From a virus: a stretch of DNA of 61,200 bases. Shown one piece after another: positions 1-60,534 of the stretch; positions within the stretch are counted from its first letter, which is position 1, and each line of letters starts with the position of its first letter. The stretch covers positions 1 through 61,200 of IMG/VR virus record IMGVR_UViG_3300046744_000205. One strand, written 5' to 3'. Below the pieces are notes generated by a model. The model ran no database searches and was not told the DNA's origin. It saw nothing but the letters and a program-made list of their open reading frames with translations. The translations under genes and the position numbers were made by a program.

Positions 1-311
1 CTGTTGTTTACAAAACGAATTGTTCTATAGGGAATCGCAGTTGCACTTGGAAGAGTAATAGTATACGTTCCTGAACCACCTGTCCAATCAAAATCAACTA
101 CGTTAACCATTTGAGTAAGTGTTGATGTTCCTCCTGCTGAAGCATTCACAAATAATACAGGCTCAAGTTTTGTAATTGACTCTGTGCAAGACTGACACAA
201 CTCATCAATGGTATACGCATCTCTCATTGCGTTAGCCTGTGAAGAACCTTTGTTCTCCGTTTCTACTCCCGGTGCTACTCCGTGAAATTTTGTCCCTGAT
301 GGTATTGGCAT
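1..311 (-). CDS. Virion structural/fibre-type protein, 3' truncated by window edge
   Basis: The first 103 codons of a protein nearly identical to the 154-aa product at 59317-59781; the C-terminus lies beyond the window. The N-terminus (MPIPSGTKFHG...KGSSQANAMRDAYTIDEL) matches the opening of the 709-aa repeat fibre at 56583-58712, pointing to a shared virion attachment module. The stop of the gene upstream in transcription (311-562) overlaps this start as TAATG. It is probably a small head or fibre decoration protein; exact role unknown. Confidence 0.75.
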   Translation of the reverse strand, partial: MPIPSGTKFHGVAPGVETENKGSSQANAMRDAYTIDELCQSCTESITKLEPVLFVNASAGGTSTLTQMVNVVDFDWTGGSGTYTITLPSATAIPYRTIRFVNN

Positions 312-562
312 TATCCTGTATATTTTTTAGTCACTCTTCCTGCCTTAGTGTTAGCTACAACAGTTTTACCTTTTCTTCCTGCTCTCTTTTTCTTACGAGC
401 AGTCTTTGCTCTCTCAGCCTTAGTCATAGACTTAGCCTTAGCAAGTGGCAGACAACGGTCAGGGTTCTTCTTATCCTTGCTTGTGCCACAAGCACCCTTT
501 ATTGACCCATCCGTTCCGATGCGTACCCACTTCTCGTCTCTCCACTTTTTTAACTCACCCAT
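311..562 (-). CDS. Small basic marine-phage protein (DUF5872-like), 83 aa
   Basis: Very Lys/Arg-rich protein with a KWVRIGTDGSIKGACGTS start, a CLPLAKAKSMTKAERAKTARKKK core and a basic tail. This pattern is recognisable from short proteins common in marine phages (DUF5872-like by memory). A near-identical paralogue lies at 60115-60369 and differs mainly at the C-terminus. The charge suggests nucleic-acid binding or packaging with DNA in the virion, but the function is unproven. It is translationally coupled to both neighbours by TAATG overlaps. Confidence 0.75.
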   Translation of the reverse strand: MGELKKWRDEKWVRIGTDGSIKGACGTSKDKKNPDRCLPLAKAKSMTKAERAKTARKKKRAGRKGKTVVANTKAGRVTKKYTG

Positions 563-723
563 TAGTAAGACTTCTTTTCACTTCCGTAATATGGGTTGTT
601 CTTTACAGTTCCTCCCATCATTTTTGCAAAAGATGTAGCTTGTGCTTTACCTGTTGCACTATAAGGGAATTTTTTTGTTTTCATCTTGCCCGATGTAGAG
701 CACTTATATTTTACTGTTGGCAT
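562..723 (-). CDS. Small basic protein, 53 aa
   Basis: Starts MPTVKYKCSTSGKMKT and ends NNPYYGSEKKSY, with Lys-rich composition. Its counterpart at 60369-60530 shares nearly all residues, and selection at the protein level between the two copies supports a real gene. The ATG overlaps no upstream gene, and the stop overlaps the start of 311-562 as TAATG. No function recognised. Confidence 0.7.
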   Translation of the reverse strand: MPTVKYKCSTSGKMKTKKFPYSATGKAQATSFAKMMGGTVKNNPYYGSEKKSY

Positions 724-727
724 AATA

Positions 728-850
728 TTATTTTTTTGGCTTAGTGTGTGTGTATCCTTTTTTCTTTAAAGAATTATGCTGAGCTAATGTTTTAGCTACT
801 TTTTTAATTCCTGTTTTACTATACATATTATGTACTTTAAATTTCTTCAT
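728..850 (-). CDS. Small basic protein, 40 aa, only in the left copy
   Basis: Encodes MKKFKVHNMYSKTGIKKVAK followed by a basic tail ending HTKPKK. Its start overlaps the stop of 850-1005 as TAATG, fitting the coupling pattern of this cluster. The right-hand duplicate lacks it entirely, so it behaves as an insertable accessory cistron. Function unknown. Confidence 0.6.
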   Translation of the reverse strand: MKKFKVHNMYSKTGIKKVAKTLAQHNSLKKKGYTHTKPKK

Positions 851-1005
851 TACTTCTTACTCTTCTTTGCGTAGTTAGGGTCTTTACAATATTTACTCGC
901 AGCCATATTCGCATATGCTGAAGGATAGGTATCAAAGGTTCGCTTTGCCCAAGCTATACCTGCTGAACATATCTTGTTACTTTTCTTTTTAGTTCTTCCT
1001 GCCAT
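850..1005 (-). CDS. Small basic protein with AWAKRTFDTYPSAYANMAAS motif, 51 aa
   Basis: A Lys-rich N-terminus (MAGRTKKKSNKICSAG) is followed by an AWAKRTFDTYPSAYAN segment and a Cys-containing tail. This motif recurs in short proteins of marine phages and is reminiscent of the DUF5872/DUF6321 group. A near-identical copy is at 60535-60690. It is coupled by TAATG to 1005-1136. A DNA-binding or virion role is inferred from charge only. Confidence 0.7.
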   Translation of the reverse strand: MAGRTKKKSNKICSAGIAWAKRTFDTYPSAYANMAASKYCKDPNYAKKSKK

Positions 1006-1136
1006 TACTTACCTTGTCCTATGTATTGTTTCTTATAGTTCTTTGAACCTTTATTGCTTGATGTCTTAGACTTAGCGTGTACTCCGGGTCTTTTAACTTT
1101 AGCCTTTTTATTATATGAAGATAGTGTTATTGCCAT
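1005..1136 (-). CDS. Small basic protein, 43 aa (KRPGVHAKSK family)
   Basis: Starts MAITLSSYNKKAKVKRPGVH and continues with a Lys/Ser-rich tail ending YIGQGK. The right-hand homologue (60827-60958) has the same length with about a dozen substitutions, showing protein-level conservation. Both ends use TAATG overlaps. The family is a recurrent short protein in marine phage genomes without assigned function. Confidence 0.7.
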   Translation of the reverse strand: MAITLSSYNKKAKVKRPGVHAKSKTSSNKGSKNYKKQYIGQGK

Positions 1137-1387
1137 TATTTTTTTCTTTTAATTCTCCCTATACCTGATCTTATTAATTGAGGTATATCTCCCAATCCTT
1201 TTAAACCTTTTACTTTAGTAGGAGCTACCCTGCCTTTTGTGTTTCTAGGATCTGAAACATTAGGAAGTTTTATTTTATCAATATCTTTGTCTTTCATCCC
1301 TATGTCATCGTATTTTTTTTTTATTTTAGCGTAATTTGCTACTAAGACATCTCCGGGCTTAACAACTTTAGGTTTTCCTTTGTTCAT
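1136..1387 (-). CDS. Conserved small protein, 83 aa
   Basis: Basic protein starting MNKGKPKVVKPGDVLVANYA, with a central KYDDIGMKDKDIDKIKLPNV and a C-terminal GLGDIPQLIRSGIGRI segment. It is the first gene of the leftward small-protein cluster and is homologous to the truncated gene at 60958-61200. The 43-bp gap to the divergent gene at 1431 carries a plausible promoter. No function recognised. Confidence 0.7.
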   Translation of the reverse strand: MNKGKPKVVKPGDVLVANYAKIKKKYDDIGMKDKDIDKIKLPNVSDPRNTKGRVAPTKVKGLKGLGDIPQLIRSGIGRIKRKK

Positions 1388-1394
1388 TTTTTAT

Positions 1395-1415
1395 TATCTT
1401 CGTATTGCAAATTTA
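1395..1415. promoter_or_regulatory. Overlapping divergent -7 boxes
   Basis: The intergenic gap holds TATCTTCG on the plus strand (1395-1402), reading toward the winged-helix gene, and TAAATTTG on the minus strand (1408-1415), reading toward 1136-1387. Both resemble the Bacteroidota TAnnTTTG element. No good -33 TTTG is present at 19-20 nt for either, so the call is tentative. Confidence 0.4.
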
Positions 1416-1430
1416 ATCAATTTTATTTTT

Positions 1431-1883
1431 ATGTCTAAACATAACCCTGCACACGATTATTTAAAATATTGGAAGGTTGTTAGGTATTTTGTAAAAGCCA
1501 AATATAAAATAAATACAGCAGATCTAGATATGCTATTATTTTTATACTCTGAAAGGTATTTCTCAAAAAGTCAATTTAAAGAATTTAATGAACTACTATC
1601 TTGGGATATAAATAGATTTAGTAGGTTACTTAGAGATGGTTGGATATCAGTATTTAGAAAACGTCAAGGTAATAAAAAAACATTGTACGAATTATCGTAC
1701 AAAGGAAAACGAATGATTTCTTCTATATATAGTAAACTAAACGGAGAAGAAATACCAATGGACCGATCAAACAACCCTATGTACGCTAAAAACGTAAGTT
1801 ATTCAGATAAGGTATACAAAAACTTTATAACAGATATGAACAAATACATTAGAGAACAACGACAACATCATTCTCAGAAATGA
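1431..1883 (+). CDS. Winged-helix DNA-binding protein (MarR-like fold), 150 aa
   Basis: Starts MSKHNPAHDYLKYWKVV and contains a helix-rich DLDMLLFLYSERYFS / LSWDINRFSRLLRDGWISVFRKR / LYELSYKGKRMI arrangement. This looks like a MarR-type winged helix: recognition helix, then a beta-hairpin wing. The ATG at 1431 is preferred over upstream in-frame codons because those overlap the promoter region. It is the only rightward gene between leftward genes, and its 3' end overlaps the 3' end of groES (1849-1883) convergently. It is a candidate transcriptional regulator of the neighbouring late or chaperonin genes. Confidence 0.7.
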   Translation: MSKHNPAHDYLKYWKVVRYFVKAKYKINTADLDMLLFLYSERYFSKSQFKEFNELLSWDINRFSRLLRDGWISVFRKRQGNKKTLYELSYKGKRMISSIYSKLNGEEIPMDRSNNPMYAKNVSYSDKVYKNFITDMNKYIREQRQHHSQK

Positions 1884-2106
1884 TGGTGTATGGCTCATTC
1901 TCAATCAGCATTGTAAACCCTGCTCGCTTATCGTAGTATATCTCGTCATCTTCCTTAATGACCTCTACTGTACTACCCGGCTTTACAACCTTACCCTTCT
2001 TATATCGCATCTGATTTGCATCTTCTGCTGACAACAACAACCCGGAGGAGGTTTTGATTTCCTCCTCGATTGTTTTAATCACTATATACTTTCCTATTGG
2101 TTTCAT
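1849..2106 (-). CDS. groES: Co-chaperonin GroES (Cpn10), phage-encoded
   Basis: An 85-aa protein with the Cpn10 opening MKPIGKYIVIKTIEEE, then a mobile-loop region with the SGLLL hydrophobic tripeptide context (residues ~20-24), a KGKVVKPG strand and a C-terminal YTIISENDVVVVL. The length is slightly short of bacterial GroES (~95 aa). It caps the GroEL ring during folding. The start overlaps the groEL stop by 4 nt (ATGA-type coupling), so the order is groEL-groES, the reverse of the usual bacterial operon. The 3' end overlaps the convergent winged-helix gene. Confidence 0.9.
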   Translation of the reverse strand: MKPIGKYIVIKTIEEEIKTSSGLLLSAEDANQMRYKKGKVVKPGSTVEVIKEDDEIYYDKRAGFTMLIENEPYTIISENDVVVVL

Positions 2107-3707
2107 TTCTCTTCGTAGCTTCTTGCCATTGTTATAATAGCGTTAGTGGATAGAATAGTTACCGCAACTGATACAGCATTCTGTAGTGCGTTCTTAGTTA
2201 CCTTCAACGGGTCAATAACACCCATCTTGTACATATCACCGAACTCACCTGTCTTAGCATTGTATCCGTAATTCTTTACAGGGTTATCTGTCAGCTTTGA
2301 CGATATGTCATCAACACTTACTCCTGCGTTTCTTATAATTTGCTTAAATGGTTCTAAGCAAGCATAAGCCATAATCTCAACTGCTTTATGGTTATAATCT
2401 TTTCTCTCACCAATAGATGCAACACTAGCGTGCTCTAATGCTACACCACCTCCGGGTAATATACCTTCCTCAAGTGCTGAACGTACTGCACAGACAGCAT
2501 CATCAATCCTGTCATATAGCTCCTTCTGCTCAAGGTCCGTCTTACCACCGGCATATATCACACCTATACCACCTGTTAGTGATGCGATACGAGATAGTAT
2601 AAATTCTTTAGCTTCTTTGTTAGCTGCGTTCTTATGCTGCTCCCATAGCTGCTCAACCCTCTCATCAATCACATCACTATGCGTGTCCTCATCTTTAATG
2701 ATAATAGTTGACTTATCCTCTGCAATAATCTTAGCTGCGTGACCTAGGTCCTCCATTGTCATAATGCTCAGGTCATCACCTGTCTTCTCAGAGAAGTATG
2801 TTGCACCTACCGAGATAGCTATGTCCTGCATCAGCTCGTGCTGCTTGTAACCAAAGTTAGGTGGCTGAACCACACATACCTTCAGGTTACTCTTCATCAC
2901 ATTCGCTGCTAGCGTGTTAAGTACGTTAGTTGAACACGGTGCTATAATCAATAACTTCTTATTTTCCTGTATGATTGGTTTAAGTATGGTCTCAATGTTT
3001 AGTATGTTTGCTATCTCAGCATCACTAACCAACACATATGTATCTTCTAATATACATTCATCCTTCTTTTGATCATTAATGAACAATGGACTAGAGTACC
3101 CTCTATCAACCTTTATACCTCTAGTAGATTCATAATACGTCTCAGACGTCTGCGACCTATCTACGGTCACTATACCGTTCTCTCCTACATCCCCATAAAC
3201 ATCCGCTATGATCTTTCCTAACTCCGGGTCGTTATTTGCAGAAATAGTTGCCACATCTTTGAGGTTTTTCTTTGTAACCTTCCTAGATGACTTCTTTAAG
3301 TTCGCAACAACATCTTCTGTTATCTTTACCATATCACGAAGTACCTCTGTCTTATTTGTGTCATCAATCAGCTCCATACCCTTTAAGACCAAAGCCTCAG
3401 TAAGTACAATAGCTGTTGTCGTTCCATCACCTGCTGATGATGCCGTACGTTCAGAAGCCTCCTTCATCATACGAACCGCTAAGTTCTCTACAGGGTCAAT
3501 TAAGCTAACTGCCTTAGCTACTGTGACACCATCCTTGGTTACTGTAATGCCGTGTGTGTGATTTGGTGATTCGATGAGTACAGTCTGACCTGACGGTCCT
3601 AATGTTGATTTGACTGCATCTGAAATGGTTTTTATACCATTGATGAGTTTGTCTCTTCCCTCCTTACCGAATTTTAAGTTCTTCGGAGTGTATCCGGATT
3701 CATTCAT
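2103..3707 (-). CDS. groEL: Chaperonin GroEL (Cpn60), phage-encoded
   Basis: A 534-aa group I chaperonin. ATP-site motifs are visible: TLGPSGQTV (residues 35-43), KDGVTVAKA (58-66), GDGTTTA (93-99), and the C-terminal signature AVRSALEEGILPGGGVAL. The Asp in the RIDDAV segment, matching the hydrolysis Asp398 region of E. coli GroEL, is kept. The C-terminus ends MARSYEEK and lacks the Gly-Gly-Met tail of bacterial GroEL. It probably folds capsid or tail proteins, alone or mixed with host rings. The divergence from host sequences and the tail loss indicate a phage lineage rather than a recent acquisition. It has its own promoter 22 nt upstream. Confidence 0.95.
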   Translation of the reverse strand: MNESGYTPKNLKFGKEGRDKLINGIKTISDAVKSTLGPSGQTVLIESPNHTHGITVTKDGVTVAKAVSLIDPVENLAVRMMKEASERTASSAGDGTTTAIVLTEALVLKGMELIDDTNKTEVLRDMVKITEDVVANLKKSSRKVTKKNLKDVATISANNDPELGKIIADVYGDVGENGIVTVDRSQTSETYYESTRGIKVDRGYSSPLFINDQKKDECILEDTYVLVSDAEIANILNIETILKPIIQENKKLLIIAPCSTNVLNTLAANVMKSNLKVCVVQPPNFGYKQHELMQDIAISVGATYFSEKTGDDLSIMTMEDLGHAAKIIAEDKSTIIIKDEDTHSDVIDERVEQLWEQHKNAANKEAKEFILSRIASLTGGIGVIYAGGKTDLEQKELYDRIDDAVCAVRSALEEGILPGGGVALEHASVASIGERKDYNHKAVEIMAYACLEPFKQIIRNAGVSVDDISSKLTDNPVKNYGYNAKTGEFGDMYKMGVIDPLKVTKNALQNAVSVAVTILSTNAIITMARSYEEK

Positions 3708-3841: not shown

Positions 3842-3951
3842 AATCGTCAAAATCGTCAAGGTATTTGATAATCAGGCTTTTAACCTCTGAAAATCGTCAC
3901 AAAATCGTCAGAAAATCGTCAAAAATCGTCACAAAAAAGGGGATAATCGTG
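3842..3951. repeat. Iteron array A (AATCGTCA)
   Basis: Six direct copies of AATCGTCA start at 3842, 3851, 3892, 3903, 3914 and 3924. A degenerate AATCGTGA follows at 3944, and an inverted copy lies at 3760-3769. Spacings of 9-11 nt place sites on nearly the same helical face. The first four copies have 9-41-11 spacing, identical to array B upstream of the primase-helicase. It may be an origin iteron set or an operator for a phage DNA-binding protein. Confidence 0.85.
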
Positions 3952-5946: not shown

Positions 5947-6039
5947 ATTCAACATAAATTTATCAAAAAAATAAAAACCAAAATGAAAACAAAAAATCAT
6001 CAAAAATAAAAAGAAAACAAAAAGAAAACTCTACTAAAA

Positions 6040-6071
6040 TTTGGTCATGTCGTACAAATTGCGTACATTCG
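6040..6071 (+). promoter_or_regulatory. Early promoter P2
   Basis: TTTG (6040-6043), 20 nt, then TACATTCG (6064-6071), one mismatch from TAnnTTTG. The block TTTGGTCATNTNGTACAAAT is nearly repeated in P3 (6253-6284), so the two promoters are recent duplicates. It drives the 50-aa gene. Confidence 0.7.
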
Positions 6072-6097
6072 TAGTATAATATTAAAAAGGAAAGAAA

Positions 6098-6250
6098 ATG
6101 AAAGAAATCATTGCACTTGTGTGGAAAGACAAAACAATCACGCACAAAAAAGGAAAAAAAGTTGTGACTCAATCAGTTGATGAGTTTATTTATCAGTCAT
6201 TAATAAACCAAGTCACTATTCCGACACGTCGGAAAAAGAAAGATAACTAA
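6098..6250 (+). CDS. Small basic protein, 50 aa, with palindrome-encoded tail
   Basis: Starts MKEIIALVWKDKTITHKKGK and ends with the palindrome-encoded IPTRRKK segment and KDN. It sits 27 nt after a promoter, with an A-rich leader. The palindrome occupies residues ~41-46 in frame and supplies part of the C-terminus. No homologue is recognised; the promoter supports expression. Confidence 0.55.
   Translation: MKEIIALVWKDKTITHKKGKKVVTQSVDEFIYQSLINQVTIPTRRKKKDN
6219..6234. repeat. Dispersed palindrome copy 5 (centre AC), inside a small CDS
   Basis: TTCCGACACGTCGGAA is read as part of I-PTRRK at the C-terminus of the 50-aa gene, 18 nt upstream of the -33 box of promoter P3. Confidence 0.95.
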
Positions 6251-6252
6251 AG

Positions 6253-6284
6253 TTTGGTCATATGGTACAAATGCCGTACATTTG
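6253..6284 (+). promoter_or_regulatory. Early promoter P3
   Basis: TTTG (6253-6256), 20 nt, then TACATTTG (6277-6284): full consensus. The predicted start near 6291 places a palindrome (6320-6337) in the leader of the 6354 gene. Confidence 0.8.
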
Positions 6285-6319
6285 TAGTATAATAATTAAG
6301 AAAGAAAGAAATACTAACC

Positions 6320-6337
6320 TTTCCGACATGTCGGAAA
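6320..6337. repeat. Dispersed palindrome copy 6 (centre AT), in a leader
   Basis: Perfect TTTCCGACATGTCGGAAA ending 16 nt before the ATG at 6354. In RNA it would form a hairpin just upstream of the start codon. Confidence 0.95.
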
Positions 6338-6353
6338 ACAAATTAAAAACAAA

Positions 6354-6725: not shown

Positions 6726-6963
6726 TATAACAAAAGAAAAAATGACTGAAGGATGGATAGATGAAGATGTCTATAAATACTTCAAGTATCAGAAAGATGT
6801 CGTTGCTTATATAAAAAAGATAATGATCGAGGACAATGCTATGGGCGTTGCCGATTGGAATACAAACCAATCTGATGATGACATTTGTGATATAGGATAC
6901 AACCACTTCAATATATATTGGACTGAGTGGGTAGATGATCCATTAGTAGAAGAAGAAGATTAA
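6712..6963 (+). CDS. Conserved phage protein (CSITKEKMTEGW family), 83 aa
   Basis: The start at 6712 (MRECSITKEKMTEGWIDEDV) is preferred over an upstream TTG at 6703. The N-terminal Cys-x-Ile-Thr...EGW block and C-terminal YWTEWVDDP block are reminiscent of a small family found in phages of Bacteroidota. Acidic. No biochemical role is known to me. Confidence 0.7.
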   Translation: MRECSITKEKMTEGWIDEDVYKYFKYQKDVVAYIKKIMIEDNAMGVADWNTNQSDDDICDIGYNHFNIYWTEWVDDPLVEEED

Positions 6964-6965
6964 CC

Positions 6966-6983
6966 TTTCCGATATGTCGGAAA
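6966..6983. repeat. Dispersed palindrome copy 7 (TTTCCGATATGTCGGAAA)
   Basis: It lies two bases after the stop codon at 6963 and 16 nt before the ATG at 7000, the same distance as copy 6, and fills the intergenic gap. Confidence 0.95.
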
Positions 6984-6999
6984 ACAAATAAATAAAGTT

Positions 7000-15094: not shown

Positions 15095-15163
15095 AATCGT
15101 CAAAATCGTCAACATACTTAGTAATCAACTACTTAAGTCAAAATAATCGTCACAAAATCGTCA
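15095..15163. repeat. Iteron array B (AATCGTCA)
   Basis: Four direct AATCGTCA copies start at 15095, 15104, 15145 and 15156. Spacings of 9, 41 and 11 nt are identical to the first four iterons of array A. TAATCA lies in the 41-nt gap in both. The last copy ends 5 nt before the primase-helicase ATG, so binding would repress translation or transcription, or the array marks a replication site. Confidence 0.85.
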
Positions 15164-22330: not shown

Positions 22331-25300
22331 TCATCTTCTCTTACTTCTCGTGTTTCGTCCTTCTCTTTTTGCTCCTGACCTTCCCTTTTCCCCTGTAGGA
22401 GCTTTTACATCTCCAAGTCTGTCAATGAATTTTTGCTCTTCAGCTTCCTCTTTTTTTACGGCATCTACATAATCTTTATCTCTCACTTCTTGTCTTAATC
22501 TATTAGGCTGATAAGAAGGAGTTACGCCTAATGCGTTCATCATTTCCTCTTCTTGTTCCATAAAATCCATTTTATCTGCTGAGAAATAATTATAAGTGCC
22601 AATAAAAGGATCAACATTAAATCCTACTAAAGCCTCAGCCGCAGGTCTAGCAGAATTAAATAAGAATCCTCTGTCAGAATCAGCATTTTTTAATGTTCTT
22701 CGGTAAATGACATTAAATGGATTTACCACATCTTGAGATCTAAATTTAGGTTTTTCATAAAAATCGTTATCTAAATACGCTATAGCCTTTCCTCCTAAGT
22801 CAAGCTCTTCTAGCGTACTACCAATTAAGGGGACTGCATATAATTGCTTCGTAAATAACATAATCTCTTTAAGAGAATCCATCACTTCCTTTAAATCTTC
22901 ATCATCTCCCTTTATTAACCTGAATATATTAGCTGTCATTTCAAATAGTATGTTTACTAAAAACCCATTTATAACAAAGCTTCTTACATCTTCTGTCCTT
23001 GGGACTTGACTTGAAAAAATAGACCTATATATATTTCTAGTGCTTTGAGCTAGTTTATTTTGTTGTGCAAAAATTGCACTACCAAACATAAGAAAAGTTC
23101 TTACTAAAGGATTCTTAGAACCTTGCAATTGAGTTCTTTCTGTTTCCCTTCTAGTTTGCTGAGTAGAGTTATAGTCGTTAAGTAATCTAAGTGCATCACT
23201 TTTATTCATGCCATTGGCAATATTTCTTTTGTAGTTGATCATATATCCAAGAACACCAAGAACATCACCAATAGTTGTTGGTGCACCTTGAACGGCAGCA
23301 AGCTTTGCAGCACCTCTATCAGCCCTAGTAAACTTTCTTCTTCCACCTCTTAATCTAATTCCTGTTCCTGATTCCAAACTATATACCTCACCTTTAAGTG
23401 CCTGCTTCCAACGATCTTTAAAATCAGGAGAAGCTTCAAGGGCTTCAGCAATAACACCATCTTTGCCTATCAAATCCTTTCCTAGTGACGCATACATTCT
23501 TGCAGCATCAATTAAAAACATCATTAAATCTACTCTTCTTCTAATAATTGATGGCACTTTTCCTTTGTAGTTCTCACCAAAATAATCATATTTAGGGAAA
23601 GCCTGAATAAATGATATAGTTTGTTTCGCAATCTGTATAGTTTTGAAACCTAAAACAACCCTAGTCATATTACTTAGCAATCCTCTAAAAGGAGCAAAAC
23701 CTTTATATGCATCTACACCAAGTGAATTAGGCGATAACTGTTTAAGAACAAATGCTCTAATTGCATTATCAATATAAAGATTTTTAAGAAGGATTTTAAC
23801 AGCAGGTATTTCAAAAAAAGATTGAAGTTCTTTAGCTCCCTTTGCATAAGCCTTATATCCCTCCATGGTATTTATATACCTGTCAAGTTTTGTGAAAAAA
23901 TCTATATCTGTTAAATCAACATCTGTTTCTTTATCTGTTCTTGCTTTCCAATATGGAGCTGTTTCTGTGTTGAAAGATTCAGAGAAATTTCCATCTTTTG
24001 TTAATTCGCTATATTTTTTACTATCTTTTTCTGTACTTAATGTCGTTAATGGGAAATAATTTTCTATTGCTCCTAAATTATTATAGTTTACTTCAGAATA
24101 TACTTCATTTATACCATCATAGTATTCATTACTTAAAAAGTCTACGATAGAATCGGCAAATGCTGTTAATTCTTTTCCAAGATGTTTTTCTATAGCATCT
24201 ATTTTATCTTGAGTAAATCCTTGTTTCTCAAGTTTTTTCTTTACATTTTCATTTTTCCAATACGCATATATGGTCATAAGCTCACTAGGACCAAACGTAC
24301 CTATACTTTTGCCCCCCAAAGAACTAACGATACCATCTATTTCCATGCTACCCTTTCTTTGTGCTATAACCTGAATAGCTTTGTATCCTTTTAGCGTTAC
24401 CCCTGTCTTTGACTTATATTTAGCACCTATGTTATCTACTATTGAATTTAATTTTTTTTCCATAGCCTGCAACCCTGCAAGTCTATTCGTATTCATTACA
24501 TTCAACTTATCGTATATTTTTTTTCTAAATAGATTAAACCCTTTGGTAGTCCTGTCAGCTATATTGGTTAGCGTTTCAATGTTATTCATAAGATTATTTT
24601 TAAGTGATCTTATCATATAGGTATAACCACCGTATTTAAATAACTTTACATAATCACTAATCGCTTCAGGTATTTTTAGTTGTTTAAACTTTTTATATAT
24701 TTCTAGTCTTTTAGCTTTTATTTGGTTGTTGTCTAAGAGATTTCCTTTATCATCAAATAACTCAGGGTTGGTTTCTTTTATTTGATTTACAGCTTCTGCT
24801 TCTTCCTCTAAACGCTTTTTAGACTCAATAGACTGTATATCTTTTAAAACTTGTATACCTTCTTTTTTATTACTTTTTAAACCATTATATACCTCAATAA
24901 CCTCCTCCAAAGTCATATTGTCTATGTTGTTAAACATTTTATATGCCAAGAAATCATTATATATTTTAATCTCTTTTGGAGTTAGTTTTTCTTCTTTGTC
25001 TACTTTTTCTTGTATTTGATCATTTAAATATTGGTTTTCATTTATGGCTGCTGCCAACGCATCTATTTTTATTTGATCTCCACTAGTTAATGTTTGAAAA
25101 ATATCTTTTGCACTTTTAAAGAAACTTTTGGCATCCTTACCAATTTTTGCTTTTCTTGTAGAGCTATCTTTTATAAGTTTTTTTATTGACTTAATAGTCT
25201 TTGCTTTATCGGATGCTCTCTTTTTTCGTATAGCATTTAATATTTTTTCTGTTTCTATTTTTACATTAACCATCGTTAATGATCCAATGCTTTTTATAAT

Positions 25301-28300
25301 ATCATTTAAAACTTTTCTTTCATCTTTACTAAGCTGTAATGTTGAAACATTAGACAAAGCCATTCTTTTCATTTCTTGAATAACTTTAGCTAAGTCTTTT
25401 GTCCCTTTTACTCTATCTCTAATACTCTTTCTGAGGTTATTTATTTTTTTCTGAAAAGTAAAGTTACCCTCTTTTAGATTAATCGATCTATTAAACCCAT
25501 CAATTAATTGCATCTTTACTAGTGCATTTTGCTTTTTAAATATAGGATTAGATTTTAATATTTTTATACCCTGCTCCCTTACTTTTGTTACAGATGCTTT
25601 TTTATTTTTATTAATAAATTTATCTAACTCTTTCTTTACTTCTTGAAATAGCTTAACAGCACTTTTTGCACCATCAGCAACCGTTTGAAACTCTACAGGA
25701 ATTTTAGTAAATATGTCAAGGTTTATTTCTAAAGCAGCATCTATGTCTTTTGCTTTAAATTTTCTATCAATAAGAACTTTTCTTATTGCTGCATCCGGGA
25801 TATCTTTACTTCTACCGTATTTAATGATATCATACATTGAATCACCATCAGGAGCTGTCATTAATTGCAATGCATCATTAAACGCATCTACGTTCTCTTC
25901 AAATAGTTTTTCGCCTGACAATAAATCAACAGATACAGCCTGAACAAATTCATCTAATGTAACGTCTTCAAGTTGTTCGGCGGTATACTTAGATATACCC
26001 ATTAACTTCTTTACATTTTGAAATAGGTCTTTTAAGAATTCTTTAAAGCCTTTTCTTTCTGCGGAAGCCTTAACAAAAGATTCACCCTTATCCCCTATTG
26101 CAGTAGCTAAAGCTTCTTCATAAATATATGTATTTATCTGCTCATCAGTAGCACCATTTTTTCTCATCTGATCGGTCACCCTTTTATAATCAGAACTTTG
26201 TTTTACGGCATCTACATAAGATTTCCCTTCTTTACTTTGTATAAGATCCATTCCTTTATTGTATAATAAAGGTTTTAGTTTCTTAACTACGTTTAACCAT
26301 ATATGTCCAAATTCATGTAGTGGTGTGTTGAAATTTTCAAAAGCAGGATTTAAATATAATTTTCCATTATATATAGCACCATAAATTTTTTGATTCTTAG
26401 TAGAAAGTTTTTTAGCATTCAAGTCATTAACTAACGCATCAAATTCCTCTTGAGTTGTAGAAACCCCTACACTTGGAAATGCTTTTGTTAGCCTATTTAC
26501 AAACTTTTCGTAAGCAGTTGCAACTTTTTCTGTTATCTCATAAGCTGTACTAGTTGTTACCATTGCAGATTGCCCTGCATATCCTATGGCTTCTGATCTA
26601 GTAAAGTCAGTTAATTCTGAAAGCGGACCTAATGATTCTTCAATTAATGTTCTTGTAGCTGTTAAAGATTTTGTTTTTAATATTTGCTTTAAAGCATCAG
26701 AAACTTTTTTTCTATCCTTATCTTTTAATTTCTTTACATCACCTTTCAATAAAGTTTTTACAATATTATCTATTGCATTTTTTCTCTCTTTTGGTTTAAG
26801 TGATTTATCATCAGTCTTTCTCTTTGCTTCTTTTATCTTGTTGTATACATTAGACTCAGACTCCGTTGCGTCTCTTTTTACATCTCCTGTTCTTTTTCTA
26901 TCTAAACCTAAAGATCTTTCTTCTAGTTCAGAGAAATACTTATCCGTAACGCTATAGTATGGAACGGACTCTTCCATAACACCAATAGCTCTACCTCTTA
27001 TGTATATAGGGTAATTATTATGTGTATCTAAACCTTCTTCTATTTGCTGTTCTGTAGATATTTTTGCTGACTCTATTATGTCTTTTATTCCTTGGTCGTA
27101 TTGTTTTTTGTTTATTTCTTTTCTATCAAGCTTAGCATCAAGTTCTTTTTTTAAATCGCTAACTTTTACACCATCCTTATTTGTTATTTCAAGAACAGTT
27201 GTCATTGTTCCAACAGGTTGGTCTTTTATAAACTGCTCACTATTTTCATCAACTAATGTCTTCAAAGAAACGCCTAGGTTCTGAAGCTCTTTTGAAACTT
27301 CTGTCCCTGCATCCATTTCTAAATCTTCAGCGAGTATACTCTGCATTGCAGCAGCTCTAGTTTTTACACCTTCGTTTTCTTGAAGTAATTTAAAGAACGA
27401 TAATGTATCGTTGCTTTTTTCTAAATGTTTCTTTGCATTTTTTACATTTTTATCTGTTGATTTTGAGATATGGTCTTTGACCAAATTCCAAATTTCTGCC
27501 TTTTTTTCTTGAGGAATTTTTTCATCTAACGCATTAGCCGTTTCTATGTTTGAATATATTCCTCCATCACCCATATTATAAACTACGGATGCGTCACCAT
27601 TCATAGCACCCCTAATTATACGGTTTGCTGCTTGCTCCTTAATAGAAGCCCAAGCAACTTTCCCAAACATACCATCCATTAATGGGAAGAACGATCCCCC
27701 CATTTTTTTATATTTATTGGTTTTTTTATTATATGGCTTACTAGGATCTTCTAATTGAACTTTAAGCTTATCTGCCATTAAAAGATTTAATTTTTTACCA
27801 ATTATATCTTTTAATTTAAAACCCTTTACCTTTTCAATTAAGCTTTTATTTTCTTTAAAATCAACAGGTTTTGGTGATACATCAGGTTCTTCAATTTCAA
27901 ATGCTTCTTCAGATTCTTCTTGCTCGTCTAGGTTGCTAAATGTTTCTATAGCCTTTTCCTTTAACTTATCTTTTCTTTCGTCAGCAGTACCTTCTTCAGC
28001 TAATTGAAACTGAGGATCTTCAGACTTTATAAGATCTTCTAATCTTTTTGCTTCTTCGTCGATAAATTCTTGTGTTTCATCTACATCTGCTGATGTTTCT
28101 AATATGGCATCATCTTTTATGATGTATTGCTCTTCAACTGTACCTCTTGCATCACGAGTAATTAGTTTCACAACCTGAGCATCCGAATCGTCAATTAGTT
28201 TCTCCTCTTGCTTTTTTACCTCACTTAAAGGTTGATTTGTATCTTCAACTTTTACCACGTCAATCGTAGTGCCGGGAGGAACTGTGAATTTTTTTAATGG

Positions 28301-31228
28301 CTTGTCTCCTTTGTAATCACTAGCTAATTTCTTATCAGCAGCAGCAAATTCACCTTTCTCTATTTTGTGTGCCGAAAAAGGCTTACCATCTTTTATTTTA
28401 GGCTGCATACCCTTAAATAAGGTTTGCTCCTCAGTAGTTGTTATTTGTTCTCCCGGAGTCTTAGCTTGTTCAAGCTCAACTTTTGCTTCAGTTTTAAGTG
28501 GTTTCTTTATTTCTTTAAATTGACTGCCATCTTTTATTATTCCTGCCCCCCCTAACTCTATATAATTTGACCCTTCATCAAATTCTGTCTTATTCTCACC
28601 CCCATCTGTTATTTTTCCTACCTTAACAAAACCTTTTAAAACTCTTCCATAACCTTGAGCAAAACTCATAGACTCAGAAATATAAGTTCCGCCGGAAAGA
28701 TCATCTTTTAACTGCTCTCTACTTGCTTTTGTTCCATGAAACATGACTCTTGGCATCATGTTTTTGTCTGTCATTACTGTTACATTGTTTTCTGACAATA
28801 TTTTTAATCTGTTTTCTTTAGTTTTTTCATTAGTTGGTAGATTATCATATTGTTCTTTTGCTTTCTGCCAATCCCCGTACTTATCTATAAACTCATCAGA
28901 TGTTATCGTATCAATTATATCTTGAGATGTTATATCTTCTTTATTATCCTTAATATCTTTTATGTCTTTTTTATTACTTTCCGCTATTTCAGGATTTTCA
29001 CTTTTAGATAATTTTTCAGCAACTTCCAACCCTTCGTTAATAGATTTCTCTATATCTTCATATGCTACAGTTTCTTCAGGGTTTATTTTTTGTTTTCTTT
29101 CTTCTTGTATTTTTATATCAGGTGCAGCTTCTTCAGTTACTTTTTCTTCAACCTCTACTTCAGGTGCAGCTTCTTCAGCTACGTCTTCGGCAACTTCATT
29201 TACTATTTTTTGGGCATCTTGATTTACTTCTTTTTCTATTTCACCAAACTTAGCCTTAACATCATCAGTTTGCCCTGAAAGCCAATCTTTGTAAGTGTCT
29301 GCAAATTGCTGACCTGCTTTTGTTGCACTACCAAATAAAACACCCATTCCAAATGTAGATAATCCAAATTCCAAATTTTGATCTAACTTCCCGAATCTTT
29401 CAACCCAAAGGTCTTTTACTTTCTTTAAATCTCCATCTGATTCATTAATTATATTACCTAACTCGTTACCATACTCCTCAGCCATTTCACCCAATCCTGT
29501 GCCTGTTCTTTGTGCAGCAGCAGCCAAAAATTTATGTGCTTTAGATGCATTTTTGCCAAAAGCTTTGAGCATTGTCTGCATATATAAATTTCTTCTACCT
29601 ACAGCAGAAAGTGCTTTTGAAAATGTTTCACCTAAAGCACCTGATAAGAATGAAGCCTCATCTTTAACTGCTTCATCTCCAAAAAATTGTGCAGCTTCGT
29701 AGGTTATACCCTGCTCAGCAGCACCTAATAAAAATTTACTAAACCTGTTGGTATCTTTTAGTTTATCAAAAGCCCTTCCTATTTTTGTTATATTTTTTAA
29801 ACCCCTAACAGTACCACCTGCAAGAGCAAAATCTTTCATCATAGCTAGGGTTGTGCCTGTCATAGACCCGGCTTTTTCGCCTGTAGTCATATCAAAAGAT
29901 GACTCTAATGCTTTAATATTTTCTTCTGATATATCTTTACCTACATCAGCTTTCTGTAGTACGTCGAAAATAATACTAGACTCTTCTTGCTCTGTAGTAG
30001 ATAAACTTGCATCGCTAATAGTAGAAGCAAAGGATTTACCAAATTGACTAAAAAAATTATCTTCTTTTAATGCTTTTCTGTTTAATAAAGCAATTGGTGT
30101 TAATGCCTCAAGTTTTTTATATGCCCTAACATATCTTCTAATAACAGGACTAGCCCCTGATATGTCATCAATAAGTGGTATAGTAGAAAGAACCATATCT
30201 GAAGCTCTCATCGCATCTCTAGCTTCATCATATTCTAATACCGCAGCATCATAATAGTTGAGGAACTTTTCATAAGGAGTCTCACCTTCTTGCTTTTGCA
30301 TTTCAGGTGTACTTACGTAAATTTCTTTAGCTGCTTCAACAGGTTTAAAAAAAGATTTATACTTAGTTTGTAGTTTTAATAAATTTTCTTTTAGTTGTTT
30401 GTTTTCAGGATCTTTAGATAATTCAAATCTAGCCTTCTTTATAGCTTCTTGATTTTCATTAAGATATTGTTCTTTGATTTTTGTTAGACTTTGTTCATAC
30501 CCTTCTTTTTCTTTAATTGCATCACTAAGAGCTTTTTCAGAATTTCGAAGCCATTTGTTTTGTTCAGGGTCTTTATATATTTCTATTCTTTCGTCGACGT
30601 TTTTTATATCCTGCAACAATTTATACTCACGTTTATCTGATTCACCTAGAAACCCTGAAGCCATTTCATACCTCATGTCTCTAATTTGATCTTTATTTTC
30701 GTATATATTGTTATCAATTAAAGACTGATCCTTTTCTTTAACTTTTTTTACATAGTCTAAATTTTCAAATTGTTCTTCAGGTATAGTTGGTGCTTCAAAT
30801 TGTTGTTCTGTTTCCGGAGCAGTTATAGGCTCAACAGACATTGGATCAAACCTACTTTTTTTTTGTGGTGGTTGTTCTTGTTTTTTCGGAGGATCTATAG
30901 TTTCTCCGACAAGCATTATATCCTCTTCACCTGATGATGAGTCCGAAGAACCATTTCCTTCCTGAACTTGCTCTGTAATAGATTCCGTAACCTCCATCTC
31001 TCCATTTGATTCTGAAGAGTCTTTTTTTTTTAAACCTACATTATCTTTCCACGTGCCTAGATCACTTTCTACAAAACCATTTTGCGACAAATACGAATGC
31101 ACATTATCCTGTACATTTTCTTTTGAAGCAATATTGTTTTTCCATGTTTCAAAATCACTTTGAGTTTTATTATCAGCAGTAAGCTGATTCCAAATGTTTT
31201 TTAATCTTTTATCGTCCATGTTGTTCAA
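22331..31228 (-). CDS. Giant polyvalent internal/ejection protein, 2965 aa
   Basis: One 8.9-kb gene, about 15% of the genome. Near residue 829, VMFHGTKASREQ...GGTYIS...AQGYG matches the ART-PolyVal ADP-ribosyltransferase pattern. A second ART-like segment follows (LASDYKG, KKFTVPPGTTIDVV, QEEKLID). Near 1637, FNTPLHEFGHIWLNVVK gives an HExxH zinc-peptidase motif, with a likely third ligand in YEEALATAIG. The C-terminal ~700 residues (LLSNMTRVVLGFKTIQIAKQ) lack recognised motifs but resemble late-packaged protein regions. Polyvalent proteins are thought to be injected with DNA to counter host defences. It is the last large gene of the ejection-protein group. Confidence 0.85.
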   Translation of the reverse strand: MNNMDDKRLKNIWNQLTADNKTQSDFETWKNNIASKENVQDNVHSYLSQNGFVESDLGTWKDNVGLKKKDSSESNGEMEVTESITEQVQEGNGSSDSSSGEEDIMLVGETIDPPKKQEQPPQKKSRFDPMSVEPITAPETEQQFEAPTIPEEQFENLDYVKKVKEKDQSLIDNNIYENKDQIRDMRYEMASGFLGESDKREYKLLQDIKNVDERIEIYKDPEQNKWLRNSEKALSDAIKEKEGYEQSLTKIKEQYLNENQEAIKKARFELSKDPENKQLKENLLKLQTKYKSFFKPVEAAKEIYVSTPEMQKQEGETPYEKFLNYYDAAVLEYDEARDAMRASDMVLSTIPLIDDISGASPVIRRYVRAYKKLEALTPIALLNRKALKEDNFFSQFGKSFASTISDASLSTTEQEESSIIFDVLQKADVGKDISEENIKALESSFDMTTGEKAGSMTGTTLAMMKDFALAGGTVRGLKNITKIGRAFDKLKDTNRFSKFLLGAAEQGITYEAAQFFGDEAVKDEASFLSGALGETFSKALSAVGRRNLYMQTMLKAFGKNASKAHKFLAAAAQRTGTGLGEMAEEYGNELGNIINESDGDLKKVKDLWVERFGKLDQNLEFGLSTFGMGVLFGSATKAGQQFADTYKDWLSGQTDDVKAKFGEIEKEVNQDAQKIVNEVAEDVAEEAAPEVEVEEKVTEEAAPDIKIQEERKQKINPEETVAYEDIEKSINEGLEVAEKLSKSENPEIAESNKKDIKDIKDNKEDITSQDIIDTITSDEFIDKYGDWQKAKEQYDNLPTNEKTKENRLKILSENNVTVMTDKNMMPRVMFHGTKASREQLKDDLSGGTYISESMSFAQGYGRVLKGFVKVGKITDGGENKTEFDEGSNYIELGGAGIIKDGSQFKEIKKPLKTEAKVELEQAKTPGEQITTTEEQTLFKGMQPKIKDGKPFSAHKIEKGEFAAADKKLASDYKGDKPLKKFTVPPGTTIDVVKVEDTNQPLSEVKKQEEKLIDDSDAQVVKLITRDARGTVEEQYIIKDDAILETSADVDETQEFIDEEAKRLEDLIKSEDPQFQLAEEGTADERKDKLKEKAIETFSNLDEQEESEEAFEIEEPDVSPKPVDFKENKSLIEKVKGFKLKDIIGKKLNLLMADKLKVQLEDPSKPYNKKTNKYKKMGGSFFPLMDGMFGKVAWASIKEQAANRIIRGAMNGDASVVYNMGDGGIYSNIETANALDEKIPQEKKAEIWNLVKDHISKSTDKNVKNAKKHLEKSNDTLSFFKLLQENEGVKTRAAAMQSILAEDLEMDAGTEVSKELQNLGVSLKTLVDENSEQFIKDQPVGTMTTVLEITNKDGVKVSDLKKELDAKLDRKEINKKQYDQGIKDIIESAKISTEQQIEEGLDTHNNYPIYIRGRAIGVMEESVPYYSVTDKYFSELEERSLGLDRKRTGDVKRDATESESNVYNKIKEAKRKTDDKSLKPKERKNAIDNIVKTLLKGDVKKLKDKDRKKVSDALKQILKTKSLTATRTLIEESLGPLSELTDFTRSEAIGYAGQSAMVTTSTAYEITEKVATAYEKFVNRLTKAFPSVGVSTTQEEFDALVNDLNAKKLSTKNQKIYGAIYNGKLYLNPAFENFNTPLHEFGHIWLNVVKKLKPLLYNKGMDLIQSKEGKSYVDAVKQSSDYKRVTDQMRKNGATDEQINTYIYEEALATAIGDKGESFVKASAERKGFKEFLKDLFQNVKKLMGISKYTAEQLEDVTLDEFVQAVSVDLLSGEKLFEENVDAFNDALQLMTAPDGDSMYDIIKYGRSKDIPDAAIRKVLIDRKFKAKDIDAALEINLDIFTKIPVEFQTVADGAKSAVKLFQEVKKELDKFINKNKKASVTKVREQGIKILKSNPIFKKQNALVKMQLIDGFNRSINLKEGNFTFQKKINNLRKSIRDRVKGTKDLAKVIQEMKRMALSNVSTLQLSKDERKVLNDIIKSIGSLTMVNVKIETEKILNAIRKKRASDKAKTIKSIKKLIKDSSTRKAKIGKDAKSFFKSAKDIFQTLTSGDQIKIDALAAAINENQYLNDQIQEKVDKEEKLTPKEIKIYNDFLAYKMFNNIDNMTLEEVIEVYNGLKSNKKEGIQVLKDIQSIESKKRLEEEAEAVNQIKETNPELFDDKGNLLDNNQIKAKRLEIYKKFKQLKIPEAISDYVKLFKYGGYTYMIRSLKNNLMNNIETLTNIADRTTKGFNLFRKKIYDKLNVMNTNRLAGLQAMEKKLNSIVDNIGAKYKSKTGVTLKGYKAIQVIAQRKGSMEIDGIVSSLGGKSIGTFGPSELMTIYAYWKNENVKKKLEKQGFTQDKIDAIEKHLGKELTAFADSIVDFLSNEYYDGINEVYSEVNYNNLGAIENYFPLTTLSTEKDSKKYSELTKDGNFSESFNTETAPYWKARTDKETDVDLTDIDFFTKLDRYINTMEGYKAYAKGAKELQSFFEIPAVKILLKNLYIDNAIRAFVLKQLSPNSLGVDAYKGFAPFRGLLSNMTRVVLGFKTIQIAKQTISFIQAFPKYDYFGENYKGKVPSIIRRRVDLMMFLIDAARMYASLGKDLIGKDGVIAEALEASPDFKDRWKQALKGEVYSLESGTGIRLRGGRRKFTRADRGAAKLAAVQGAPTTIGDVLGVLGYMINYKRNIANGMNKSDALRLLNDYNSTQQTRRETERTQLQGSKNPLVRTFLMFGSAIFAQQNKLAQSTRNIYRSIFSSQVPRTEDVRSFVINGFLVNILFEMTANIFRLIKGDDEDLKEVMDSLKEIMLFTKQLYAVPLIGSTLEELDLGGKAIAYLDNDFYEKPKFRSQDVVNPFNVIYRRTLKNADSDRGFLFNSARPAAEALVGFNVDPFIGTYNYFSADKMDFMEQEEEMMNALGVTPSYQPNRLRQEVRDKDYVDAVKKEEAEEQKFIDRLGDVKAPTGEKGRSGAKREGRNTRSKRR

Positions 31229-51033: not shown

Positions 51034-51593
51034 AGGCTCATTGTTATTTGATGGTCGTATACTCTATATAGCTTTTCATCATCAACCGTAAACTCATACT
51101 CGCTATCAGGAGTAAAGCTAATTCTATCCCCGGGCTTTAATCCCATAGATGTCAGATACTCGTTAGGATATTTCATTATACCTACTAACGGCTCTTCTAC
51201 ACTATTCTTATATATAACAGAATCCTCTTTTTTGATAGGCTCTACAAAACAATATCTATCGTGTGCGTTCCAACCCTTATCATTCTTATACATAAAGAAC
51301 TGTTCGTTGTCTACAAAAAATAGGTCATCCTTAAAAAAGCTCCTTCCGCTTTTTTGCCTACCTTTCATATCGTTATAAAACTTAAATACGTTGTGATGTA
51401 CGAGTAAGGTGTCTCCTACCTTGACTCCTCCTGTGTAGCCGATTGGAAGCTCGACAACCTCAGCATATCTGTTTGAAAACATATGGTCTTCTTCAGATGT
51501 ACTAACGACAAGCTCTAGTCCTGCTATCTCTCTTGTATTGTCGTATCGTCTTCCTTTTAATGGCTTTACTATAAAGTAAAACGGTGATTTCAT
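51030..51593 (-). CDS. Tandem Cpn10/GroES-like protein, 187 aa
   Basis: Two GroES-like segments are visible. The first has FYFIVKPLKGRRYDNTREIA, GVKVGDTLLVHHNVFKFYND and KDDLFFVDNEQFFMYK. The second has YCFVEPIKKED, GLKPGDRISFTPDSEYEF and YRVYDHQIT. I recognise this as a co-chaperonin-like protein in marine phages, possibly analogous to T4 gp31. Its place between virion and terminase genes suggests a role in capsid folding with the GroEL ring. ATGA overlap with the terminase small subunit. Confidence 0.7.
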   Translation of the reverse strand: MKSPFYFIVKPLKGRRYDNTREIAGLELVVSTSEEDHMFSNRYAEVVELPIGYTGGVKVGDTLLVHHNVFKFYNDMKGRQKSGRSFFKDDLFFVDNEQFFMYKNDKGWNAHDRYCFVEPIKKEDSVIYKNSVEEPLVGIMKYPNEYLTSMGLKPGDRISFTPDSEYEFTVDDEKLYRVYDHQITMSL

Positions 51594-51820
51594 TAAAAGT
51601 TTATGTTGTATTCAATAGATACGGGTACGGTTTCATTAAACTCTTTCCAAACAAATACTTCTTGCCCGGACTGTATCCATATCTCGATTGATTTTTTTTC
51701 TTTATTAAATTTAATTAAATGTATTGTATGACTATTATTCAGGACAGACTGACCTGTTATATAGTGCATAGCACCCGACTTATAGTCAGGACCAATAGAT
51801 ATCTTTCTAATAATGCCCAT
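51593..51820 (-). CDS. Conserved small protein, 75 aa
   Basis: Starts MGIIRKISIGPDYKSGAMHY, a recurrent opening in small marine-phage proteins, and ends with EFNETVPVSIEYNINF. TAATG overlap with the following gene fixes the ATG at 51820. Possible virion component. Function unknown. Confidence 0.7.
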   Translation of the reverse strand: MGIIRKISIGPDYKSGAMHYITGQSVLNNSHTIHLIKFNKEKKSIEIWIQSGQEVFVWKEFNETVPVSIEYNINF

Positions 51821-52077
51821 TAATAAACAACGCACACAACGCTAGAGCTTGTTCCGTCTCCTGCGTTTCTGTACATTCTACCTGTCGCTAGTCCTGCTGA
51901 TTTAGCAGCAGCATTAGTTGCGTATACAGGAAGGGTTACTGTTGATTGAGCTAATAATGCAAGTATAGAATCTACTGTGTAGTTCTTAGTTTTATTTGCA
52001 TCTTGTTCGTCAGAACCTATTAATATATCTGTTAGGTTAACTTGACCTGATATTGGGTATGTACTAATTATCGCCAT
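51820..52077 (-). CDS. Short structural protein with fibre-type anchor, 85 aa
   Basis: Starts MAIISTYPISGQVNLTDILI, then GSDEQDANKTKNYTVDSILA. The block resembles the N-terminal module of the 709-aa fibre and the 154-aa protein, so it is likely virion-attached. Confidence 0.65.
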   Translation of the reverse strand: MAIISTYPISGQVNLTDILIGSDEQDANKTKNYTVDSILALLAQSTVTLPVYATNAAAKSAGLATGRMYRNAGDGTSSSVVCVVY

Positions 52078-52294
52078 TTGTTACTTTTCCTGTTTGCACG
52101 TTGATGACTGCATCATCTCCGTATTTTTCTAATAATTTTTTCTCTTCCTTAATGTAAGCAGCTTTCATTGACTCTATCTCTTTTAATAAAGCATCCTGTG
52201 CAATGAAGGTGTCAGCTATTCTGATTTTAACATTGTTATACTCTGTTACTAATCCTTGCAATAGATCTAGCTCATCTTTACTTAATTCTTTCAT
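52064..52294 (-). CDS. Coiled-coil protein, 76 aa
   Basis: Starts MKELSKDELDLLQGLVTEYN, with heptads, and ends INVQTGKVTNGDN. The motif YGDDAVINVQTGKV is found in many short phage proteins. A TATATTTG box lies directly upstream (minus strand, 52311-52318). Overlaps the structural gene downstream. Confidence 0.65.
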   Translation of the reverse strand: MKELSKDELDLLQGLVTEYNNVKIRIADTFIAQDALLKEIESMKAAYIKEEKKLLEKYGDDAVINVQTGKVTNGDN

Positions 52295-52310
52295 TTGATT
52301 ATATTTTTTA

Positions 52311-52335
52311 CAAATATAAAACTTTTTTATCTTTG
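52311..52335. promoter_or_regulatory. Divergent -7 boxes between the 76-aa and spanin-like genes
   Basis: TATATTTG on the minus strand (CAAATATA at 52311-52318) reads toward 52294, and TATCTTTG on the plus strand (52328-52335) reads toward the gene at 52340. The plus-strand start would be about 7 nt after the box, so the transcript is nearly leaderless. Confidence 0.5.
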
Positions 52336-52339
52336 CAGT

Positions 52340-52612
52340 ATGAAGAGTCCACAAGTAATTATTTTTATAGCTTTATATTCACTTATAGCTACAGCCATTA
52401 TAACTAATCTATTGTTTGTTAAAAAAGCAGAGAATAGGATTATATCACCTAAACACAATATTATATCTACCGATACGGTATATATGTCTATTGATAGCTT
52501 GGATTCTAAAAGAGATACAATTAAATTATACTATGAAACAAAAGTTAGTAATTATCATATACTTCCTTCTTCTGAACGTATCAGTCTATTCGCAAGTCGC
52601 ATTAATAGATAA
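52340..52612 (+). CDS. Spanin-like inner-membrane protein, 90 aa
   Basis: An N-terminal anchor (MKSPQVIIFIALYSLIATAI) is followed by a periplasmic coiled-coil-like region (TVYMSIDSLDSKRDTIKLYY) and a conserved-looking end SSERISLFASRINR, which I recognise from Bacteroidota phage lysis clusters. A second gene overlaps its 3' half in another frame. The overlap and location next to holin/endolysin make an i-spanin the best guess. Confidence 0.6.
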   Translation: MKSPQVIIFIALYSLIATAIITNLLFVKKAENRIISPKHNIISTDTVYMSIDSLDSKRDTIKLYYETKVSNYHILPSSERISLFASRINR

Positions 52613-52913
52613 TAACGGAGATACATTGGTTGCCATCACTCTTGAGCAGATGGATAACATATACGTTGAGCTAATCCAAAAAGATAGCCTAATGGAACAA
52701 GCTACTATAAGCTCTTCTAAGGAAGCTAAACTATATGAGCTAGTAACTATATCCGAAAATAACCTAAAGTCCTGTGAGAAGGTCTTAAAAGACGTAGGAG
52801 ACAGTAATATCTATTTACTGTCTGAAAACAAAAAGAAAGATAGTAAACTTAAAAGGACTAGAAAGGTTGCCATATATACTACTATTTTTGCTATACTTAG
52901 TATCCTTCTTTAG
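52533..52913 (+). CDS. Spanin-like exported protein, 126 aa
   Basis: A signal-like start (MKQKLVIIIYFLLLNVSVYS) is followed by a coiled-coil middle and a C-terminal hydrophobic segment (RKVAIYTTIFAILSILL). The gene overlaps the 90-aa gene by 80 nt in a different frame, an arrangement typical of Rz/Rz1-type spanin pairs. Its end overlaps the convergent endolysin gene. Confidence 0.55.
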   Translation: MKQKLVIIIYFLLLNVSVYSQVALIDNNGDTLVAITLEQMDNIYVELIQKDSLMEQATISSSKEAKLYELVTISENNLKSCEKVLKDVGDSNIYLLSENKKKDSKLKRTRKVAIYTTIFAILSILL

Positions 52914-53301
52914 ATACATCAAAACTTGGGCAAGCCTTGTTAGAATATTCATTGTGACCGTGAACGGTGCTGCCCGGATATCTTTTCTTTAGTTCATCTA
53001 TAAGCCATATAAGGGCTTCTTTTTGTGCGTGTGTTCTTGTGTCTTTAGGATTCTTATAAGACTTATCCATTCCTCCCGCATATGCGATTCCTATGCTATC
53101 TTTGTTGTGTCCTCTAGTGTGAGCACCTACCTTTGATTCGGGTCTACCTACCTCAACCGTTCCGTTCAATGTTATAAGATAGTGGTATCCTACATCTGAG
53201 AAGTTTCTAGCTAAATGCCAAGTTCTTACCTCTCCTACTGTAACGTCTCTACCTTCAGGGGTAGCTGTGCAATGCACAATGATTCTGTTTATGTCTCTCA
53301 C
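52897..53301 (-). CDS. N-acetylmuramoyl-L-alanine amidase endolysin, 134 aa
   Basis: T7-lysozyme-like residues are present at the right spacing: His10 (IIVHCTA), Tyr39 (GYHYLI), His116, Lys122 and Cys124 (GHNEYSNKACPSFDV). These correspond to T7 His17, Tyr46, His122, Lys128 and Cys130. It cleaves the amide bond between muramic acid and the stem peptide. No signal peptide, so release depends on the holin next to it, which overlaps by ATGA. Confidence 0.9.
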   Translation of the reverse strand: MRDINRIIVHCTATPEGRDVTVGEVRTWHLARNFSDVGYHYLITLNGTVEVGRPESKVGAHTRGHNKDSIGIAYAGGMDKSYKNPKDTRTHAQKEALIWLIDELKKRYPGSTVHGHNEYSNKACPSFDVSKEGY

Positions 53302-53720
53302 TTGATTTGCTTTTTAATATCTTTGATTTGTGTAATGGATTCTTTAAATTTATCTATAAAAGAGTAGCCTTTTAAAACTACCCAAGATTCATCCATTGAT
53401 TTTACCTCATTTAGAATGAGGACCAAAGATACTATTTTAGTTGAAAAGAAATCAAAATCTAAAATACTTTTTATTAATTCATTTAATATTAACGTATCTA
53501 AAAGAAATACTAAAATAACAACGCCCAAGTAACCTACAGTTTTTGGAACATATCCCTTTCTAAAATCTCTACTAGTTACAGGCTTATTTTGCTTTTTAGC
53601 TTTAGCTATTCCAAATGCTGTATCTAAAATTGTAGATAGACCTACTACAAGTAGCAATCCACCAACCGGTGCAAAAAATAAATATAAACTTTTCAATATG
53701 CTACTTAGAGTTATCTTCAT
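53298..53720 (-). CDS. Holin (toxin-secretion/phage lysis type), 140 aa
   Basis: Three hydrophobic segments (residues ~10-32, ~60-82 and ~95-110) flank a basic loop (IAKAKKQNKPVTSRDFRKGY). The sequence resembles the pfam05105 holin family. It overlaps the endolysin start by ATGA, forming a lysis pair. It would make the membrane lesion for endolysin release. Confidence 0.75.
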   Translation of the reverse strand: MKITLSSILKSLYLFFAPVGGLLLVVGLSTILDTAFGIAKAKKQNKPVTSRDFRKGYVPKTVGYLGVVILVFLLDTLILNELIKSILDFDFFSTKIVSLVLILNEVKSMDESWVVLKGYSFIDKFKESITQIKDIKKQIK

Positions 53721-53722
53721 CG

Positions 53723-59781: not shown

Positions 59782-59782
59782 A

Positions 59783-60530: not shown

Positions 60531-60534
60531 AATA

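Follow-up and report, generated by a model that had tools for sequence, protein, structure and literature searches.

Results

Two versions of one gene cluster at the contig ends

The ends of the window, by which we mean the whole 61,200-base stretch analysed here (one IMG/VR virus record, 35% GC), carry similar versions of one cluster of small genes. This raises the question of whether the phage keeps the cluster twice or whether the assembly brought together two strain variants of a single locus, both of which the preliminary description had offered. We conclude that the record is, with high probability, one circular genome assembled with the alleles of two strains at its contig ends, and that the assembly almost certainly created the apparent duplication.

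Self-BLAST of the window bore out the claim that the two ends are collinear. Four collinear blocks were found between 1-1370 and 59471-61198, pairing 1-315 with 59471-59784 (96.5% identity), 317-736 with 60124-60543 (93.3%), 849-1010 with 60534-60695 (96.9%) and 1008-1370 with 60831-61198 (86.9%, gapped). The divergence, at first put at about 3% substitutions, proved higher: 77 mismatches in 1,270 aligned columns amount to about 6%, unevenly distributed from 3% to 13% by block, and the lower figure fits only two of the four blocks.

The left allele (1-1387, minus strand), assigned to strain 1, consists of a truncated 154-aa gene followed by 83-aa, 53-aa, 40-aa, 51-aa, 43-aa and 83-aa (83b) genes. 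The right allele (59471-61200, minus strand), assigned to strain 2, comprises the 154-aa gene (59317-59781), then 111-aa, 84-aa, 53-aa, 51-aa, 46-aa and 43-aa genes and a truncated 83b gene. As originally described, three genes differ, the 40-aa gene (728-850, minus strand) being present only on the left and the 111-aa (59783-60118, minus strand) and 46-aa (60690-60830, minus strand) genes only on the right. A basic 51-aa protein (phrog_27331) is encoded on the minus strand in both copies (850-1005 and 60535-60690), as is a basic protein of 83 aa on the left (311-562; phrog_23735) and 84 aa on the right (60115-60369).

Each copy is incomplete. The left one starts within the 154-aa gene, of which 103 codons are left, and the right one stops within the 83b gene, a few codons past its start; its last bases read TTTATG versus TTTAGG in the left copy, and it stops at 61200 without a left-copy match. 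Comparison of the copies gives a pN/pS of 0.23, and five synonymous changes leave the 51-aa protein identical in both, so both copies look like functional alleles under purifying selection, with neither decaying. In these respects the end copies appear to differ as orthologous alleles do.

A true tandem duplication whose copies have diverged, with the assembler breaking between them, could present a similar picture: both copies lie in one contig, under purifying selection and with frames intact save at the cut ends. We regard this as very unlikely, and equally so its corollary, that one genome carries the small basic-protein cluster twice in tandem, as diverged copies both under selection, and that lineages have traded its accessory genes. 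The contig ends cut exactly through both copies, which is among the reasons for preferring alleles of two strains.

A 127-base overlap probably marks a branch in the assembly

The window opens with 127 bases that are found again, without a mismatch, at 59471-59597; the first difference falls at base 128, where the internal occurrence continues into the other allele. Contigs from de Bruijn assemblers end with an overlap of largest-k length. In a common metaSPAdes setting k goes up to 127, and wherever the graph offers several paths, metaSPAdes contigs have ends in common whose length is exactly that of the largest k (PMC10914622). The left-end repeat at 1-127 has this length and would mark the place where the assembly graph branches.

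The two ends of each of 23 related contigs served as a control. Exact terminal repeats of exactly 127 bases were present in four related circular IMG/VR contigs (G005, G018, G022 and G023), and a further contig, G004, had a 127-base overlap at its right end. In other related contigs the exact repeats were shorter, at 123, 75, 70 and 50 bases, consistent with a different assembler or setting; several contigs had none. Since 127 recurs as an end overlap in related contigs, this length reflects the assembler rather than the phage. For the window record itself, k=127 was taken from the related contigs together with the COBRA paper (PMC10914622).

The window resembles the maxK end overlaps described for COBRA with metaSPAdes in that its end matches another stretch for precisely 127 bases, the largest k, and resembles the branch points described there in being sited where within-population variation gives two paths (PMC10914622). 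It differs in that the circularity of the genome places the partner stretch inside the very contig it matches, giving a lasso and no clean self-circular contig. Neither the exact window ends nor the right-end continuation was found in viral_contigs, which may lack near-identical records, and one 56-base pattern had no match in cellular genome contigs. The missing continuation and the unmatched last bases on the right count against the lasso.

We considered and rejected the notion that the 127-mer alone proves a mixture of strains, because a repeat within one genome would branch the graph in the same way. The case for two strains rests on the 127-mer together with the single copy in relatives, because by itself the 127-mer shows only a branch point. 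A 127-base exact repeat inside one genome would likewise break the graph if the cluster were duplicated in tandem, but a repeat of that size is shorter than the usual insert and is normally bridged by read pairs.

The ends could also represent natural terminal redundancy, that is, a headful-packaged linear virion genome whose terminal repeats have diverged. Contigs of relatives do start at many places, as in circularly permuted genomes. Terminal repeats are, however, remade from one template each round and so remain identical, whereas the window's ends differ by about 6% and three genes; the identical ends that define a direct terminal repeat are absent. The exact terminal repeats of relatives, moreover, never exceed the assembler k of 127. 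Terminal redundancy is therefore very unlikely indeed, the least probable of the explanations weighed here.

Under the two-strain explanation, the record would go slightly more than once round an Elemovirus-like podovirus genome of about 59.8 kb that is circular or circularly permuted. The sample would have held two or more strains with a common backbone and different cluster alleles, and the last 127-mer present in both alleles would be where the short-read assembler branched. Beginning at this branch, the contig would take one strain's allele (1-1387), round the common backbone, meet the 127-mer again and end inside the other strain's allele (59471-61200). The two alleles would thus come from different molecules.

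Overlapping, non-identical ends occur at other loci in related contigs

Several related contigs also have ends that are alike without being identical. In G004 the ends are 74% alike over 1.1 kb (L094 2013-3117 and L097 1321-2424), near window gene 51030, so that this contig appears to be a second case of the window's kind at a different locus. The ends of G015 are 84% alike over 499 bp, the left end lying beside the relative of window gene 31229; those of G008 are 97% alike and lie in the early region, and those of G019 are 99% alike and lie in the helicase gene. Because the overlapping ends of these four contigs sit at different genome positions, they do not represent a conserved terminal duplication. 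The varied positions are what one would expect if a circular genome can be opened into a contig at whichever locus varies between strains; they also weigh against a tandem duplication of the cluster.

These observations suggest a cheap diagnostic for catalogues: when the first or last k bases of a circular-phage contig turn up again inside it, the contig would hold two alleles of one locus. Such contigs give a free view of strain variation, seen here as entire tiny genes that come and go at gene borders.

The cluster is a single-copy locus in related phages

The window phage is Elemovirus-like, and its host is probably a member of the Flavobacteriia, judging from the hosts of its relatives. 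Its TerL is 78% identical to that of the circular podovirus record MW202828.1 and 46% identical to that of the Flavobacterium phages elemo (Elemovirus). Genes for GroEL and GroES are also present. The elemo phages (e.g., MT497079) are likewise podoviruses of about 60 kb with GroEL/GroES. MW202828.1 (Caudoviricetes sp. ctfjg026, circular, 60,850 bp) has the same genome plan as the window, with GroEL 60% identical.

The two alleles adjoin different flanks. From 1388 onward lie the regulator, groES and groEL, and from 59470 downward the 96-aa and 53-aa genes. The small regulator-like gene (1380-1883, plus strand; phrog_17028 / phrog_12817) adjoins groES, with groES and groEL at 1849-3707 on the minus strand as a single-copy flank. 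On the other side, a gene for a basic, Cys-containing 96-aa protein (59024-59314, minus strand; phrog_7595) is, like the regulator-like gene, a single-copy anchor in relatives. In a circular genome with only one such locus, both flanks should border one cluster.

We fetched 80 related contigs by GroEL, some of them near-duplicates, which leaves fewer independent cases. In 74 of the 80 the locus was spanned from groEL through groES, the regulator and the cluster to the 96-aa/53-aa anchor, and a second copy of any cluster gene was found in none of these 74; three double hits among the related contigs were adjoining pieces of one gene. MW202828.1 shares with the window the order groEL, groES, regulator, small genes and 96-aa anchor, but unlike the window record it has one cluster copy, with other genes between the anchors (annotated as HNH endonuclease and prophage lp2 protein 33). 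The passage from groES through the cluster to the far anchors in the 74 relatives and MW202828.1 supports the earlier proposal that the genome closes into a circle across the junction.

Two copies thus occur in none of the 74 spanning relatives and in neither GenBank relative, which argues against a tandem duplication. Of the two possibilities first proposed, the assembly of strain variants gains from the signature of k at 127 bases and from the similar ends at other loci, and the kept duplication loses from its absence in relatives. The true genome size is most likely about 59.8 kb with a single-copy cluster, not 61.2 kb with repeated ends, and the false duplication is removed from the description of the genome.

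Metagenome contigs can be chimeric, and a join of two phages elsewhere in the contig could have given it ends from unrelated genomes. Here, though, the genes follow one another around the entire circle as they do in complete relatives, the structural block keeps rigid spacing, and both alleles connect to their own flanks in the arrangement known from relatives. We accordingly rate a chimera as very unlikely.

In two related contigs the 51-aa, 83-aa and 96-aa genes lie in single copy on the opposite side of groEL (L021 3071-4160 and L023 2417-3510), apparently through translocation of part of the cluster.

Variability of the cluster and possible allele exchange

Some cluster genes have close counterparts in other lineages. 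The 40-aa gene is 100% identical in DNA over its whole length in L009, in which the flanking cluster genes are 91-97% identical and the GroEL gene is 90% identical to the window's; the longest exact run between the left arm and any relative, 116 bases, falls on this gene. The right 53-aa and 43-aa genes have nearer counterparts in L006 or L007 than in the left allele. The affinities of the 40-aa, 53-aa and 43-aa genes to these other lineages are a further reason for favouring a mixture of strains, and the alleles look like a mosaic exchanged between lineages. L009 (G002) has frameshifts in TerL, GroEL and GroES and is probably an uncorrected long-read assembly.

At five of the six left-arm gene borders, stop and start codons overlap by one base in a TAATG junction. 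Such junctions would mean that whole genes can be gained or lost at the borders without disturbing their neighbours.

The preliminary description had also named the cluster a variability hotspot. Across 14 genomes, its interval between conserved anchors does vary, from 103 to 1878 bp (SD 506), and most intervals in the terL-portal-head block have SDs of 0 to about 12 bp. However, the intervals 51593 to 52064 (231-8539 bp), 52064 to 55797 and 53-aa to 96-aa, together with some early ones, vary equally or more, neighbouring late intervals among them varying more. A cluster hotspot was not seen in the elemo phages: isolates differ in small genes, as the window's two alleles do, but the groEL neighbourhood does not vary among elemoA, B and E (99.8-99.96% identical in the three isolates) and the differences lie elsewhere. 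Because other intervals vary as much or more and the groEL side is constant in elemo, the hotspot label appears only partly right: the cluster is clearly variable, but probably as a stretch of a broadly variable late region and not as a singular hotspot.

Proteins of the cluster and other features of the window

Except for the 154-aa protein, the cluster proteins are small and strongly basic (pI 10 to 11, 15-35% Lys+Arg). Three of the small proteins have PHROG matches, clear to phrog_23735 and phrog_27331 and weak to phrog_17967, all families without assigned function. Pfam gave no family for the cluster proteins and only a sub-threshold match to DUF5754 for the flanking 96-aa anchor, and no relative of the 111-aa protein was found in viral_contigs at the sensitivity used, nor was any found for the 83b protein. 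The late, tail-adjacent position suggests that the small proteins are virion or DNA-binding proteins.

The 154-aa protein is acidic and matches part of the baseplate family phrog_20556. Its N-terminus resembles that of the neighbouring 709-aa protein (56583-58712), which may be a tail or fibre protein with an attachment domain in common with it. The 709-aa gene has internal direct repeats at 56.96-58.29 kb that are 71-95% alike.

Elsewhere in the window, a 2965-aa reading frame without a Pfam match occupies 22331-31228, and an 11-kb elemo gene annotated as a structural protein may be its counterpart. Two short direct-repeat clusters (AAAATCGTCA) lie at 3843-3931 and 15096-15163. Six copies of ATCGTCA occur between groEL and the early genes, and four directly before the primase-like gene at 15169. 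These clusters are iteron-like and could serve as a replication origin or as regulator sites; a set of similar spacing occurs in L007 (5751-5839), and the motif is unclustered in the other relatives checked. Upstream of the small early genes, a palindrome (TTTCCGAYATGTCGGAAA) is repeated at 6225-6340 and 6955-6990, and a block at 6019-6097 recurs at 6233-6311 with the two copies 84% alike.
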